DNA of 36,163 bases, taken from positions 1-36,163 of the IMG/VR virus record IMGVR_UViG_3300019487_000062; one strand, written 5' to 3'. Shown piece after piece: positions 2,714 through 32,661 of the stretch. Every line of letters starts with the position of its first letter. The first letter of the stretch is position 1. The translations under genes and the position numbers were made by a program. Origin of the DNA: a virus. Below the pieces are notes generated by a model that was given only the letters and a program-made list of their open reading frames with translations, was not told the origin of the DNA and searched no databases.

Positions 2714-3035
2714 CCGCTCCCTCCGCCACGACAGCGACGAGTCGCGCGACCATCTCCGCTGCATCCGCTCGCAGCTTTGAGATAAGTTCGAGGTCTGGAA
2801 CGTCCTCCTCACGCCACCCACCTGACTGAGCGTTGTCGAACCGCCACGACTGATAGCACTGCTCCGATATCTCGGCGCGAGCTACAGCGCGTTCTAACTC
2901 CACGTATGCGTCAAGGGCTTCCCATTGCTGCTCGGAAAGCGGCAACGGGCCAGCGTCGTTACCATCGAAGTACCAATGCGGGCCGGTGCTGTTCAACCTA
3001 TGGCGCAACAGACCTAACGCTTCTGTGCTATTCAT
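2706..3035 (-). CDS. hypothetical helical protein, 109 aa
   Basis: Begins MNSTEALGLLRHRLNSTG and ends AVVAEGADE. The C-terminal half (ELISKLRADAAEMVARL) is strongly helical. The ATG at 3035 is preceded by GAGGGAACGG and overlaps the micro-ORF upstream by 8 nt. No domain recognised. It sits among small early accessory genes that in temperate phages often modulate host functions. Confidence 0.6.
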   Translation of the reverse strand: MNSTEALGLLRHRLNSTGPHWYFDGNDAGPLPLSEQQWEALDAYVELERAVARAEISEQCYQSWRFDNAQSGGWREEDVPDLELISKLRADAAEMVARLVAVVAEGADE

Positions 3036-3093
3036 CCGTTCCCTCTTGGCGTAGGCGGGCGATCTCGTATCGGAGTTCGTACAGCTCCGCCAA
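3028..3093 (-). CDS. micro-ORF ending ...RLRQEGTDE
   Basis: A 21-codon TTG-started frame (LAELYELRYEIARLRQ...) with coding-like composition that ends TAG inside the ATG of the next gene, exactly the 8-nt ATGAATAG overlap used at 2706-2713. The frame is open upstream to the stop at 3112, so an ATA or other start is possible. A competing frame from ATG 3115 to 3032 (27 aa, MNNLKKPIGG...) has a much better ribosome site but less coding-like sequence. Only one of the two is likely real. Confidence 0.35.
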   Translation of the reverse strand: MAELYELRYEIARLRQEGTDE

Positions 3094-3111
3094 TTGGCTT
3101 CTTGAGGTTAT

Positions 3112-3318
3112 TCATCCGCTCCCCTCCGCAACACCGGACATCAGCCGCTCCACGTCCAGATACTCCGTCCAGCGCACGATCAACTGTCCGTCGCGCGTGG
3201 CGAGAACACGGACGGCTTCGTGGCGCTCGTGCGGGCGCCGGGCGTTCTTATGCACCCGCTCGCAGGTGAGCGTGAAGGTGCCGATCGTGATCGTGCAGGG
3301 ACATGCAGCCACATTCAC
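3112..3318 (-). CDS. hypothetical protein, 68 aa
   Basis: GTG start at 3318 overlaps the previous stop (GTGA). The N-terminus MNVAACPCTITIG and the following TCERVH give three cysteines. The rest (EAVRVLATRDGQLIVRW) looks like a small beta-rich fold. Its end lies in the repeated junction GGAGGGGAGCGGATGAAT. No family was recognised. Confidence 0.55.
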   Translation of the reverse strand: MNVAACPCTITIGTFTLTCERVHKNARRPHERHEAVRVLATRDGQLIVRWTEYLDVERLMSGVAEGSG

Positions 3319-3533
3319 GCTCCGCCTCTCGTCTCGGCTTCCACACAGGCATCGATGTATGCGTCGATTGCGGCCTCAGCGGCGTAGAACTTTGGTAGGT
3401 CGCCACGCCCCGGCTGGGTGTACTTTGGACACGCCTTGATGGCTTTGATCATCTTGTCCCGGTGCGCTTCTAGTTCGCGCGTCCGCCACCAGTGCGCTTG
3501 CGCTCTCCTCGCCTCTCGTACTTCCTCGTTCAC
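3315..3533 (-). CDS. hypothetical helical protein, 72 aa
   Basis: Starts with GTG in a GTGA overlap with the split-nuclease tail upstream. The product (MNEEVREARRAQAHWWRTRE...) is charged and helical, with two cysteines. No family recognised. The preserved overlap with the 24-codon remnant suggests that this gene once followed the intact nuclease directly. Confidence 0.55.
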   Translation of the reverse strand: MNEEVREARRAQAHWWRTRELEAHRDKMIKAIKACPKYTQPGRGDLPKFYAAEAAIDAYIDACVEAETRGGA

Positions 3534-3604
3534 CCGATCACCGCCTCGATCTCCCCAAGCACGCCCCGCTGCACCATGCCCGTCGAAAATCTGAGAACTT
3601 TCAT
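3530..3604 (-). pseudogene. C-terminal remnant of a split nuclease (24 aa)
   Basis: Encodes MKVLRFSTGMVQRGVLGEIE and four more residues. The motif VLRF-x4-V-x2-G followed by a short helix is the typical C-terminus of small VSR/VRR-type phage nucleases (GW-x-VLR...). The ATG overlaps the stop of the zinc-finger nuclease (TGATG), and the end overlaps the next gene (GTGA). The reading frame differs from the upstream gene, so this is not an intein. It is best explained as the tail left when a homing-type nuclease inserted into the older gene, whose head is residues 1-38 of the upstream protein. Assignment by family memory; not searched. Confidence 0.55.
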
Positions 3605-4575
3605 CAGTACACCTTCTTGGGAGAGCGTTCCCACTCTGGAATCATGGCCCCCATCTTTTGGGCGACGCCGCGGTACATGGCCTGATCTACCACCACCATG
3701 CGAACGGTCGGGTGATACTTCGCCATCCGCTTCAGCTTCGTTGCGCTTGCAGGATCCATCCACCCCTTGACCTCGTGGTACTCGATTGAACCGTTACGGT
3801 TTGTCACTTTGAAGTCTGGGGTGTAGAAACGTGAACCGCGTCTGATGCGTGAAAACTCGAACGTGTCCACCTCGTATTCCCAACCTTGAATTTCGCCGTA
3901 CTGCACCAGAAGATTTAGGTACCGTGCCCAGTTCGCTTCCCATGCGGAGCGGAAATAGCGCCCCTCCAAGTCTTCGCGTTTACCGCCACGACTTCGGGAG
4001 TATTGGAACTCTCTGTTCACCCTGGTCTGTACCTTTCCCCAACATCGCTGGGAGCAGAACCGTGCTTGGCCGCGACGGCGATGCGCGCCTGAGGCCATGA
4101 AAGCAACCCCGCACGATTCACACATCACAAGGATGGGACGCTCGGCAGCCTTACGAGGCCAACACGCGGACGTGCAGTATTTGCGTCGGGGCTTTCGTGG
4201 TGCTCCACACGTCGGGCACAAATAAGTCTGTGCGCGGCGACAGGCGGCGACGCAATAGCGCTGCTTGGCGGACGACGGGGTAAATGTTTGACCGCAGCCT
4301 TTACAAGTTCGGGTCTCCACCGGCCCACGTGCTGCAGCGTTGACCACGATCTGGTGATCCGCCCTACACCGCACCGAGCAAAACTTTCCCCCACCTCGGC
4401 GCCTCTGTGCTGGCGGCGCATAGAACGGAGTGTTGCAATGGAGGCAAGGCGTCCGCGCAACGAAGTGCAGTCCGCGCGACCACCCTTTTTTGGGGTGGCG
4501 CAGCTCCCGCTCGAACGGGATGCCCGCGGCCCGCAGGTCGATCTCCAGCGTCTGCACCGCGTCCCCCTTCCTCAC
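3604..4575 (-). CDS. zinc-ribbon array fused to PD-(D/E)XK nuclease, probable homing endonuclease
   Basis: A 323-aa protein with three parts. Residues 1-38 (LEIDLRAAGIPFERELRHP) resemble the head of a small phage nuclease. Four zinc ribbons follow, with cysteine pairs at 44/47-66/70, 91/94-108/112, 120/123-134/138 and 152/155-174/178, in the C-x2-C...FCS-x2-C style of homing-endonuclease DNA-binding fingers. The C-terminal PD-(D/E)XK nuclease has an AWEAN helix near 211-215, YTPDF at 251-255 and the catalytic EVK at 268-270. It probably cuts a specific DNA site and promotes its own spread. It overlaps the radical SAM gene by ATGA. An ordinary phage-encoded resolvase or endonuclease is the alternative. 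Confidence 0.75.
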   Translation of the reverse strand: MRKGDAVQTLEIDLRAAGIPFERELRHPKKGWSRGLHFVARTPCLHCNTPFYAPPAQRRRGGGKFCSVRCRADHQIVVNAAARGPVETRTCKGCGQTFTPSSAKQRYCVAACRRAQTYLCPTCGAPRKPRRKYCTSACWPRKAAERPILVMCESCGVAFMASGAHRRRGQARFCSQRCWGKVQTRVNREFQYSRSRGGKREDLEGRYFRSAWEANWARYLNLLVQYGEIQGWEYEVDTFEFSRIRRGSRFYTPDFKVTNRNGSIEYHEVKGWMDPASATKLKRMAKYHPTVRMVVVDQAMYRGVAQKMGAMIPEWERSPKKVY

Positions 4576-5363
4576 AGCAGCACACCCTGCGGCATGCGCT
4601 TCCGCTCACGGTCATATTCGTGAAACTCCCAGACTTTATAGAGTCGTCGATTCACCCACCGAGCAAGGTGGCGCTTTTGCTTGTCTTCAACGCCGTGTCC
4701 TGTCAGTGGATTGCGGAACAGCATCACGAACGGGTCTGCGCCGTAACTGCGAATGATCTCGATTCGCCGCATGTCCTCCTCAAATGACGAATTGAAGCCC
4801 ACCAAAACAAACGATTGCAGATGGCGGGCGGGAACCCCCGACGCAAGCAGCAGTTCGATGCCACGGCGATATTGGCGCTCATATGAGATCTGGTCGAACG
4901 CAAACGTGATCTGCCGGGAGGTGTGGTGAAGGTTCCAGTACGGCGCCGCCGCCAGCGCCTGCGCAAGTGCGCGGGTCACCACTCGCACGTCAAGCCCCTG
5001 CGACGGGCAGAAGTCGATACCACGTCGCGTAAACTCCTCAAGCTGCACTATCGCCCACTTTTCTTTCCAGAAGAACTCGTTGTCCAGCAACACAACGAAG
5101 GGTCGTCGTCGGGGACTGTGCTCATTGAGAAGATCGTCGATGGCAGCCACTGAGTGCGGCTTGCCCTCCTTTGTCGGAACCACACAGAAATCGCAGTGCC
5201 AGATGCACCCCCGCATCAGATACCCGATGCCGTAATCTATGCCGTACAACGTATAGTCGGCCCGCTGACGTTCGACCTCGTCCGGCAACGTGTTCGTAAG
5301 TGACACGCCTGTGCCTCCGATGTCTGCGCCGAGCGCGGCTGCGGCCTGCGCTTTCGTCGCCAT
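4572..5363 (-). CDS. radical SAM enzyme, B12-type family, N-terminally short
   Basis: Radical SAM proteins use a 4Fe-4S cluster to cleave S-adenosylmethionine and start radical chemistry. The cluster motif is C53-x3-C57-x2-C60 in RGCIWHCDFC, followed by VVPTKEG. Downstream stretches LLDNEF, QGLDVR, ITFAFDQ, LVGFN and DPFVMLFRN match, from memory, a phage/plasmid family that normally has a cobalamin-binding-like domain in front. Here only about 45 residues precede the cluster (GGTGVSL...LPDEVERQRADYTLYG), so most of that domain is missing. The ATG at 5363 overlaps the helicase stop (TGATG). The substrate is unknown; a nucleic-acid base or tRNA modification is one possibility but is not shown. 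Confidence 0.85.
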   Translation of the reverse strand: MATKAQAAAALGADIGGTGVSLTNTLPDEVERQRADYTLYGIDYGIGYLMRGCIWHCDFCVVPTKEGKPHSVAAIDDLLNEHSPRRRPFVVLLDNEFFWKEKWAIVQLEEFTRRGIDFCPSQGLDVRVVTRALAQALAAAPYWNLHHTSRQITFAFDQISYERQYRRGIELLLASGVPARHLQSFVLVGFNSSFEEDMRRIEIIRSYGADPFVMLFRNPLTGHGVEDKQKRHLARWVNRRLYKVWEFHEYDRERKRMPQGVLL

Positions 5364-7555
5364 CAGTCGTCCTCCCGGTACGGCAGCCGGCGCACCGCCG
5401 GGTGGCATGTGTCGCACATCCAGCGCCCGCCGACGCGCAACGTCCAGGCGTAATCGCCGCAGGTCGGACACGGCGGTGATGGCCGCGTTATGTCGTGACC
5501 GAGGACAGCCGCGGACATCGCCGGTTTTCCATTTGTCCTAGTTTTGGTTTCGGAAATGGCACCCTCCCGATGGCTCGTTGCTGCGCCTGTTTGCGGCGAA
5601 AATTGGCTGCTTTCAAAGCTGGATTGCTGACCTGTGTCCGAGCTTGTCCACGTGTCCTTTTGTGTCCGTATGTCCGTTTGTCCGCCATTACCGTCCTTCA
5701 CGGACAAAAGGACACCAACACCTATGGGGTGTGTCCGCGCCGCGTTTTCTGGCTCAAACGTGCTAAACAGACGACCGCCGTGCGAGAGGATGTAACCGTT
5801 CATCGCCGCGCGATAGAGCAGCTTGTAGGCGGCTGGCCTGGTCTTCGACATCGCCGCTGCGATCTCTTCCGGGGTGACGGGGTGCGCGATTTGCGTCATC
5901 ACCTTCAGCAGGTCGGCAGTCTCGCGCCCGGCGCGCAGGGACGCTGCATCCCCGGTGATGGTCCAGCGGCCCCTGGCGCCGTCGAAGACGACGCCGTAGT
6001 CCTGCTCCTCGATGTCGCGTCCTGTGACGTGGAGGATCGCCTCTTGCTGTCCCTTCGCCCCGCGCGGGCGCTCGAGGCCAAGGATGGTGTCCGCAGCGCC
6101 CGTCGTGCCCGTCGAGCCCGTGACGCTGTTGAGCCAGTCCTCGTTGAACGCCTTGTTGTAGTGCGTGATCAGGAGGATGGCGACGCCGTGCCGGCCGGCG
6201 AGCTCCTGGAACTCCTCCGCTACGGCGTAGTCCTCGGCGTACACGTCGCCGCGCTTGGCGCCTGGCTGCGCGATTGCCTTGAACTTCGCCAGGGTGTCGA
6301 TGACGACGAGCCGCGCCTGAGGATGTTGCCCCAGCCAGGCGTCGATCGCGGCGACGCCGCCCTCATTCTGCCGTGGCCAGCGGTGCTCGAAGTACAGCCG
6401 GTCGGGGAATGGCTCGTCCTGCATGAGGACCTTCATGCGGCTCTTGAGGCGCGTCTTCGTGTCCTCGAGCGCCAGGATGAGCACGTCGCCGTCCTCGACT
6501 GGCAGGTCACCGAGGGCGATGCCGCCCTGCGCGACGGCCACGCCGATGTTGAATGACAGCCAGGACTTGCCGATCTTCGGACGCCCGGCGAGCAGGGCCA
6601 GCCCTTGTGGCAGGAGCCCCGGCACGGCCCACTTGACCGGCTCGATCTCCATGTGCTCAAGCTCGGCCGCGGAGAACGGATGCGGGACGTACACCTCGCG
6701 GTGCGGCCGCGCGCCGCCCTGGCGCTGCTCCTGGTCCTGCGTACGTACGATGAGCGGCGCCTCGCCGGGCTCATGCTTCGCGATCGACGCCGCGATCTGC
6801 GCTACCTCACCCTGTTCGAGCGGTTGGCTCCACTCGTCGTTGATGGCCGAGAGCGACTTGAAGATGACGCGTTCGGAGGCGCCGCGGTGCCGGAGCACGC
6901 CCGCCCACTTCGCGAGGGTGTTATTGCGTTCGCCTGGCGCGACGTCCGCAGGCAGCACCCGCGTTTCCGGTCCGTCGCCAAACGGGTGGTCATCGTCGCC
7001 GGCCATCATCATGAGCAGCCACGGAGGGATAACGGGCAGCGGCAGGTCCGGGCCTGCCTCGTCATACCACTCGTACGGCATGCCGGACTGGTGCACGGAG
7101 GGTGGCGCCACGACCTGGCCGCCGTCTCCCTTCACGTCGATGCCGGGGGCGATCGTGCGGCTGCGCACCTTCCCGCCAGGATGGCGGAAGTAGTAGTGCT
7201 GACCGCCGCCGCCGGTCTCGCACGCGGGACCCGGCGGCAGCAGTTCGTGCTCGTCGCACAGGCGCGAGAGTTCCTGGTCGCCGCCGTGCCGCGGGTCGAT
7301 ATCCAGCACGACGACGCCGGACTCCGGACCCGTGGCTACGCCGACGTTCGCGTGCGGCCACTGCTGCCACCATCGCTCGACGTCCGCATGGGCGCTCGAG
7401 GCGTTGCGCACCCAATCGTTGATGCGCGGGTGCTTCGCCGGCGACGGACAGCCGTCACGATGACAGTCGCAGCGGCGGCCGTCCGGTGAGTGCAGCGGCA
7501 CGACTCGCCATGAGCGCGCGGCTAGGTCGAGTGCCGCTTGTAGGTTGTTCCGCAT
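5363..7555 (-). CDS. bifunctional primase-polymerase / RecA-fold helicase
   Basis: Main replication protein, 730 aa. Residues 1-180 are a Prim-Pol (archaeo-eukaryotic primase) domain with the metal-binding DID at 85-87, H120 and the IDVKGDGGQVVAPPS signature. A linker leads to a RepA/AAA_25-type ATPase with Walker A GRPKIGKS at 324-331, Walker B LVVIDTL (D420) and a following ITHYNK. A winged-helix-like segment lies near 560-600. A low-complexity linker follows, whose DNA carries TGTCC repeats, and the end has a zinc ribbon (CPTCG...CDTC). It would make primers and unwind DNA at the phage origin. The ATG at 7555 follows a structured leader. Confidence 0.93.
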   Translation of the reverse strand: MRNNLQAALDLAARSWRVVPLHSPDGRRCDCHRDGCPSPAKHPRINDWVRNASSAHADVERWWQQWPHANVGVATGPESGVVVLDIDPRHGGDQELSRLCDEHELLPPGPACETGGGGQHYYFRHPGGKVRSRTIAPGIDVKGDGGQVVAPPSVHQSGMPYEWYDEAGPDLPLPVIPPWLLMMMAGDDDHPFGDGPETRVLPADVAPGERNNTLAKWAGVLRHRGASERVIFKSLSAINDEWSQPLEQGEVAQIAASIAKHEPGEAPLIVRTQDQEQRQGGARPHREVYVPHPFSAAELEHMEIEPVKWAVPGLLPQGLALLAGRPKIGKSWLSFNIGVAVAQGGIALGDLPVEDGDVLILALEDTKTRLKSRMKVLMQDEPFPDRLYFEHRWPRQNEGGVAAIDAWLGQHPQARLVVIDTLAKFKAIAQPGAKRGDVYAEDYAVAEEFQELAGRHGVAILLITHYNKAFNEDWLNSVTGSTGTTGAADTILGLERPRGAKGQQEAILHVTGRDIEEQDYGVVFDGARGRWTITGDAASLRAGRETADLLKVMTQIAHPVTPEEIAAAMSKTRPAAYKLLYRAAMNGYILSHGGRLFSTFEPENAARTHPIGVGVLLSVKDGNGGQTDIRTQKDTWTSSDTGQQSSFESSQFSPQTGAATSHREGAISETKTRTNGKPAMSAAVLGHDITRPSPPCPTCGDYAWTLRVGGRWMCDTCHPAVRRLPYREDD
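5534..5736. repeat. TGTCC iteron cluster, candidate replication origin
   Basis: TGTCC begins at 5635, 5645, 5653, 5663, 5671 and 5679 (steps of 10, 8, 10, 8 and 8 bp), with inverted copies (GGACA) at 5702 and 5710 and further TGTCC at 5534 and 5732. Segments 5652-5669 and 5700-5715 form a long inverted repeat. The surrounding stretch is poorer in GC than the rest of the gene. Lambda places its origin iterons inside gene O, so this cluster inside the helicase gene is a reasonable origin. It is inferred, not shown. Confidence 0.5.
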
Positions 7556-32052: not shown

Positions 32053-32661
32053 TTACGGAGGGGCCACGTCGAGCGATTTGTCGCTCTTACCTAGGTTGCA
32101 ATCTAAGCATGCTGTCACAAGATTGTCAACTATCGTGGCGCCGCCCTTAGACGCCGGAGTAACGTGGTCAGCGTGTAGAACGGCACCGTCCGCAGGCGAT
32201 CGACCGCAGTAGCGACACCGAAAACCATCGCGAGCGAACACATCGAACCGCAATCCTACGGCCAGCTCCGCCTGCGCCCTGATGCGGGTGCGTCGAGCTG
32301 CGTCCCAACGAGTCTCCATCATCGAAACGATCTCTTCCTCGGAGGGACGCAATCGATCGACGATTCCGCGTACAGCCAGCGCACCTCGGTTCTGCACGAT
32401 GTCCGGGCGATAGTGCTCGAACAGGTATTTGCTTAGCGCCTCGTCAGCGTTTGGATCGTCACCTGTTATCACATTCTGCTTTTTGCAGCGGCGGCAAATG
32501 ATCTCGATCCGTCCGTGCATTTCGTACATGAACAGGAGCACTTTCGTGCAGCTCCAGCACCGCCGCACAGTCTCGCGAGGGTGCTGCTGCCCGTTGGCGG
32601 CGAGCCGTTCTGGCCTCGTAGAGCCATCGCCGAGCTGTCGCACATGCACTTCAGTGCTCAT
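32053..32661 (-). CDS. Com-like zinc domain fused to HNH nuclease
   Basis: 202 aa. The N-terminal half has C35-x2-C38 and C56-x2-C59 around FMYEMHGRIEIICRRCKKQN, the layout of Com-type zinc proteins, often found after the portal in Mu-capsid-like phages. The C-terminal half is an HNH nuclease: CRYCG, HADHVTPASKGG (H163, H166), VDNLVTACLDCN, LGKSDK. The ATG overlaps the portal stop (ATGA) and has GGAGG upstream. Probably an HNH homing domain captured by, or inserted after, a com-like gene. Activity is not known. Confidence 0.8.
   Translation of the reverse strand: MSTEVHVRQLGDGSTRPERLAANGQQHPRETVRRCWSCTKVLLFMYEMHGRIEIICRRCKKQNVITGDDPNADEALSKYLFEHYRPDIVQNRGALAVRGIVDRLRPSEEEIVSMMETRWDAARRTRIRAQAELAVGLRFDVFARDGFRCRYCGRSPADGAVLHADHVTPASKGGATIVDNLVTACLDCNLGKSDKSLDVAPP

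Follow-up and report, generated by a model that had tools for sequence, protein, structure and literature searches.

Can a free-standing nuclease gene overwrite the middle of another nuclease gene and persist between its two ends? The question is raised by a minus-strand locus of a virus (IMG/VR record IMGVR_UViG_3300019487_000062; the whole stretch analysed, 36,163 nucleotides, is called the window below). A sequence-only reading of this locus had taken residues 1-38 of a 323-aa protein and a 24-codon frame behind its stop for the head and tail of a small VSR/VRR-type nuclease gene, split by four zinc ribbons and a PD-(D/E)XK nuclease. The 323-aa ORF (3604..4575, minus strand) begins with a GTG that lies within a GTGA overlap with the TGA of the upstream radical SAM gene (4572..5471, minus strand), four bases being shared. 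At its other end, its TGA (3604-3606) overlaps the ATG of the 24-codon ORF (3530..3604, minus strand) as TGATG. The stop of the 24-codon ORF and the start of the downstream neighbour, a 72-aa ORF without family match (3315..3533, minus strand), form a second GTGA overlap, again of four bases. The head is in frame with the inserted nuclease and the tail is in a different frame from the head; the coupling and the difference in frame are plain in the sequence, as the earlier reading had described.

The inserted part comprises residues 28-323 and the TGA stop (3604..4494, minus strand). Its front, residues 44-178 (4042..4446, minus strand), carries four zinc-ribbon motifs of the type CxxC...CxxxC (C44/47/66/70, 91/94/108/112, 120/123/134/138 and 152/155/174/178) and is the predicted DNA-binding part, and its rear, residues 194-316 (3628..3996, minus strand), is a PD-(D/E)XK domain in which E213, P253-D254 and E268-V-K270 are invariant among relatives (alignment A7). 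Four zinc ribbons and a PD-(D/E)XK nuclease do therefore lie between head and tail. The nuclease domain matched PHROG 190, named 'Holliday junction resolvase', at 1.2e-18, a similarity to resolvase families, and DUF1064 below the cut-off. The predicted structure of the 323-aa protein had a mean pLDDT of 74, with the nuclease domain mostly near 90 (mostly 87-96 across residues 201-310), and a fold search of the model returned weak PD-(D/E)XK matches only (TnsA, NucS-like, VRR_NUC and T7 endonuclease I at E 0.01 or worse; best E 0.011). Eighty relatives were kept from IMG/VR, and in our reading the front parts of most of them are Myb-like or NUMOD-like instead of zinc ribbons. A scan of a genome collection added six relatives, two of which (L297 and L298) were rusA-associated by eye only.

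The border between the inserted nuclease and what precedes it was set by comparison with these relatives. The closest, L001, is 43% identical over residues 28-323, the alignment starting at residue 28, and both L001 and L294 start with GKGWSSG or GKGWSRG, the equivalent of the KKGWSRG motif at residues 29-35 of the window protein. Since these two proteins begin at their own GKGWS[SR]G, residues 1-27 lie outside the zinc-ribbon nuclease family, and the head is confined to residues 1-27 (4495..4575, minus strand), possibly to residue 32 (down to 4480), and not to residues 1-38 as first proposed. The head alignment may extend to W32, which would fit a junction at shared K-x-W codons. The other zinc-ribbon relatives lack the head altogether (alignment A7), which removes the objection that homologues of the whole 323-aa protein might always carry it. 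Ahead of the first zinc ribbon, start codons occur at residues 1 and 7 and nowhere else, and the insert thus depends on a borrowed start.

The origin of the two ends was traced to the DUF559/Vsr-like phage nucleases (PHROG 503), a family gathered via its catalytic core; PF04480 matched one PHROG 503-type member at 3e-7. A full-profile HMM of the family gave only 3.5 bits for the tail of the window gene and missed the head, a weak result owed to the shortness of the pieces, and head and tail matrices built from 63 members were used in its place; their empirical null consisted of 1,439,250 positions in the six frames of 82 other viral loci. Residues 5-27 of the head scored 23.5 bits and the tail VLRFSTGMVQRG likewise 23.5 bits, the null maximum being 18.9, so that the family-specific head (LRAAG..FERE.. 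type) and tail (VLRF[ST]..MV..G..IE) are both present. A motif modelled on the window tail, with W where the window has ATG (W..VLRF[ST]..MV[KRQ]..G), had 35 matches in all of IMG/VR, every one of them a C-terminus of this family or a fused version of it. In L170, for example, GWKVLRFSTGMV stands where the window reads MKVLRFSTGMV, and KVLRFSTGMV is identical in both. The best pairwise matches of head and tail were to members akin to those of Acinetobacter phages (LRACKISFEQEYKFHPKRKW ... VLRFSTEQVKSGLAVQQIEKMIG). In a plain shuffle test, the best score of the real tail was reached by none of 300 shuffles and that of the real head by one of 300, which leaves the head alone marginal by this test. 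The two ends nevertheless fit a single nuclease family, each at the profile position expected of it and in the correct order, which confirms the tail, upholds the existence of a head and corrects the type of the old gene: it was DUF559/Vsr-like, not VRR-NUC. The possibility that neither end belongs to a nuclease family, which would have refuted the earlier reading, is thereby set aside.

This recognition rests on the family matrices, which match each end. Joined into a 62-aa fragment, head and tail had no relevant match in Pfam or PHROG scans, tblastn of head and tail in phages gave unrelated matches only, and the exact head pattern LRAAG[IL]PFERE had no match in IMG/VR. The catalytic core of the family (RW.FDF, EVEGG, EKYN) was not found in the six frames of the window, which therefore holds the remnant of a PHROG 503-type gene and not a member of that family. 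About 60-65 codons of the old gene, catalytic core included, are gone. To call the gene split with both ends kept was thus right for the ends and incomplete for the rest, the active site having been lost. The tail (MKVLRFSTGMVQRGVLGEIEAVIG and stop, 3530..3604) is probably a dead remnant; it could be re-initiated at TGATG, and the product is probably not functional.

An uninterrupted homologue at the same site, which the earlier reading had proposed to look for in related phages, was not found. Searches with the radical SAM gene, the primase and DNA for relatives of this phage brought up no near relative in the collections covered: there were only two matches in IMG/VR at the protein level, both distant, and one of 92 bp in the methylase gene. 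For this reason no empty allele is available for the window's own site, and the reading of that site rests on its remnants and on the parallel with rusA. None of the other members of the nuclease family was seen to have a DUF559-like remnant next to it; all other recognised remnants were of rusA, and many relatives had no recognisable host remnant.

The rusA remnants were sought locally with phage RusA seeds, the E. coli RusA seed having been unproductive. RusA tails starting at the nuclease stop were found in L013 and L031 (PF05866 positions 92-123; E 3e-6 and 1e-5), in L024 (7.6e-6) and in L072/L075 (0.0014). An in-frame RusA head was found in L015 (MSAITFEIPGRPVPKGRPRHS; PHROG 140, 6e-4), and in-frame RusA-type heads were recognised by eye in L058, L013, L008 and L028. 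In an unbiased scan of 38,880 PHROGs with 63 segments that directly follow the nuclease stop, the RusA-like families phrog_34 (6 segments) and phrog_140 (3) ranked among the most frequent, and in the same scan RusA was absent from the families listed for 65 control segments taken 1.2 kb away. By eye, the start-side remnants often end at DxDN, PxxKGR or PNxRxHW, which are conserved RusA positions. The tails equivalent to that of the window are about 14 to 43 aa long, lie in different frames and often lack an ATG. Replacement of the middle of a host gene with both ends kept was therefore found again independently in rusA. Taken together, the nuclease family repeatedly overwrites junction-resolvase-type genes, mostly rusA and here a DUF559-like gene.

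Other arrangements of the two genes were also observed. In L009 (4006-5465), the nuclease gene follows immediately after a RusA-like gene that appears complete, and does not lie inside it; this could possibly be another stage of the same process. L076 has a fragment of a RusA tail (4458-4574, minus strand; E 0.003) upstream of its nuclease and on the other strand, which points to an insertion that was inverted or rearranged. Five loci (L050, L051, L026, L016 and L017) share a head-like start (IPAGYVEVSKGVYERID) and a downstream segment (DDTGVLMPFPEQEEGF...) without known family match, and their shared flanks are possibly a further type of host gene.

Empty and occupied alleles were compared in one phage lineage, from which 80 contigs were fetched with the ref gene that lies upstream of the L055 nuclease. 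The slot behind ref held an intact rusA in 63 contigs, an Hjc-like gene in eight, the nuclease in five and neither in four (two of them cut off), and no contig held two of the three. The occupied L303 and the empty L352 have flanks that are 86% and 92% identical, and the corresponding values for the pair L355 and L336 are 82% and 96%. The alleles are homologous up to the end of ref and again from the position immediately behind the nuclease stop, in the last rusA codons at ATTAAATCAGGCGGCGGTTGTAC; in L380 and L381 a longer rusA tail (35 aa) is kept. The occupied alleles are without most of rusA. The five occupied contigs represent two groups of near-identical insertions and not five independent events. 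Pairs of empty and occupied alleles, as required of a homing endonuclease, were thus obtained for rusA-inserted relatives only (L303/L352 and L355/L336), and no empty site was found for loci L046-L061.

The third occupant of the slot, the Hjc-like gene (PF01870 at 2e-6 for the copy in L302), replaces rusA in L302, L307, L308, L325, L326, L329, L338 and L372, apparently without remnants. Within the first ~1.1 kb after ref in L302-L381, the interval between ref and rusA holds additional cassettes in several contigs, by eye either a PAPS-reductase-like gene or a QueD-like gene together with an ORF of 246 aa; these cassettes mark the resolvase slot as a wider exchange hot spot. Across 24 nuclease-bearing records besides the window's, a complete RusA was present in L009 only, where it adjoins the nuclease, and neither RuvC nor VRR-NUC was detected in the 25 records tested when the window's was included.

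That the remnants in the window arose by chance, residues 1-27 being a native extension of the nuclease and the 24-codon ORF a random out-of-frame one, can draw on the empty library scans with short pieces and on the one head shuffle in 300 that reached the real score. It is highly improbable all the same, since two independent matrix scores stand above all 1.44 million null positions, in the right order and flanking the same insert, the tail motif found one family in 35 of 35 matches, and the pattern recurs in rusA. Head and tail of one gene around an element would also be expected if the element were removable (intron, intein, split-intein fractured gene or translational bypass) and the old nuclease still made. 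This reading can practically be dismissed: with 60-65 codons including the catalytic core absent, joining head to tail cannot restore the enzyme, and the stretch of about 15 codons or fewer between the junction and the first zinc ribbon is too short to hold a ribozyme or splicing domain; the occupied rusA alleles have likewise lost most of their host gene. A group I or II intron was rejected because no ribozyme was recognised next to the ORF (2800-5400 had no match in Rfam up to E 1), and an intein was rejected on the different frames of head and tail, the insert's own stop codon and the absent host middle, so that the earlier exclusion of both holds. A working peptide kept by translational coupling, for instance as a partner of the nuclease, would account for the TGATG overlap and for the intact stop overlapping the next gene; however, the rusA tails differ in length and frame and often have no ATG, as expected of remnants, which makes such a role for the 24-aa tail improbable.

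Ordinary gene displacement, in which illegitimate recombination without homing installs a resolvase-like nuclease that is kept for the same job, is possible though not likely. It is in line with the replacement of rusA by the Hjc-like gene in the same slot of one lineage without visible remnants, with junctions that differ by nuclease lineage (after PxxKGR, PNxRxHW or DxDN) and with the nature of all recognised targets, which are nuclease or resolvase genes. It sits poorly with the nuclease ORF directly abutting host codons in many independent loci, and a clean swap need not leave both ends. The variable DNA-binding front parts (Myb-like, NUMOD-like and zinc ribbons), typical of homing enzymes, also speak against it. 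The same modularity would suit a purely selfish homing element, with the resolvase function lost and the phage using a host resolvase, and phage resolvases can indeed be dispensable in the laboratory, G44P of SPP1 not being essential (PMC3485210). We regard this reading as unlikely, because the slot never holds more than one of its occupants, each of which is resolvase-like, and because the inserted domain is itself assigned to PHROG families named 'Holliday junction resolvase'.

The probable explanation is gene replacement by a homing-type nuclease that overwrites junction-resolvase-type genes and maybe takes over their job. The parts of this explanation are not equally secure. The mosaic replacement architecture is nearly certain. 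Mobility by self-promoted homing is favoured with reserve; it is inferred, in the absence of cleavage-site, cleavage or homing data. Functional take-over of the resolvase role, for which resolvase activity is itself an inference, falls somewhat short of an even chance. For the window, the ancestral gene would have been a DUF559/Vsr-like gene of roughly 110-120 codons, packed between its neighbours by GTGA overlaps, whose catalytic middle was overwritten by a complete zinc-ribbon PD-(D/E)XK nuclease gene. Since the newcomer brings no start codon ahead of its first zinc ribbon, it would be translated from the old gene's start, with the first ~27 residues as a leader, and would end at its own stop, leaving the last 24 codons of the old gene behind as a remnant. 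The nuclease is proposed to cut intact alleles inside the segment missing from its own locus, and recombination would then copy it across, with the remaining head, tail and neighbours as homology. By this inferred route the nuclease allele would convert others and be immune to itself. The insertion may be tolerable since the resolvase-like catalytic domain may supply the lost function. A more far-reaching reading, less likely than not, is that the nuclease family acts as both homing endonuclease and replacement resolvase: by cutting the resolvase gene of a competing phage, overwriting its active site, borrowing its start and supplying the lost function, it would impose a low cost on the phage.

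Free-standing homing endonucleases that split host genes are known from mobE in Aeh1 nrdA and mobA in T4 topoisomerase (PMC2988022). As in these cases, a stand-alone nuclease gene lies in a functionally critical part of a phage gene and uses host expression signals and overlapping stop and start codons. The host coding regions of mobE and mobA, however, are split into two polypeptides that still assemble, whereas the overwritten gene of the window, itself a nuclease gene, has lost its catalytic middle, and its head is joined in frame to the insert. Out-of-frame HNH insertions of the ShiLan type occur in phage methylase genes (PMC11855218). They resemble the window in being homing insertions in a phage gene without intron or intein parts, and differ in that the host gene is open to read-through, the enzyme is HNH and not PD-(D/E)XK, and no loss of host sequence is reported. 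In a fractured gene with split inteins, a free-standing nuclease gene lies between two parts of one gene, as in the window; there, host function is restored by the split inteins, of which the window has none. The DUF559/Vsr-like phage nucleases (PHROG 503, PF04480) are the source of the window's head and tail, and unlike them the window has no catalytic middle and retains remnants only. With the phage RusA, Hjc-like and endonuclease I-like resolvases (PF05866, PF01870, PHROG 190), the window nuclease shares a catalytic domain that groups with PHROG 'Holliday junction resolvase', and its relatives are found in the genomic slot that RusA or Hjc-like genes fill in other contigs; unlike those resolvases, it has a large variable DNA-binding front part, and its resolvase activity is inferred.

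Introns, inteins and the gaps between genes are the usual refuges in which homing nucleases avoid harm to their hosts. The nucleases described here destroy a gene time and again and settle in its place, some of them starting from its start codon. If the nuclease also performs the function of the gene that it destroyed, a selfish gene would have become a useful one, which could explain swaps of phage resolvase genes, and the empty and occupied alleles found make the homing and take-over idea directly testable. Nuclease genes at exchange boundaries have been described, in a text without mention of RusA or resolvase (PMC10448857). Full-text literature searches for RusA together with homing gave no description of this replacement; most subscription journals were not covered, and novelty is provisional. 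One caution for annotation is that a gene labelled 'resolvase' may be an insertion of homing type and a tiny ORF behind it a dead tail.

Three further observations concern related genes. In Thermus phage Riverbug (PQ109080, 22260-23548), a RusA-like frame breaks off after the DDSQV motif in a region with an annotated ORF of 390 aa and another RusA-like gene annotated nearby; this is possibly another interrupted rusA. PHROG 1532 (80 positions, 'unknown function') was matched by the same segments as the RusA tail and may consist of RusA-like C-termini. In the window itself, an HNH endonuclease-like gene (202 aa; 32053-32661, minus strand) is placed between the genes for the portal and the head protease and shares 4 bases at its start with the end of the portal gene; it is probably another homing-type gene of this phage.
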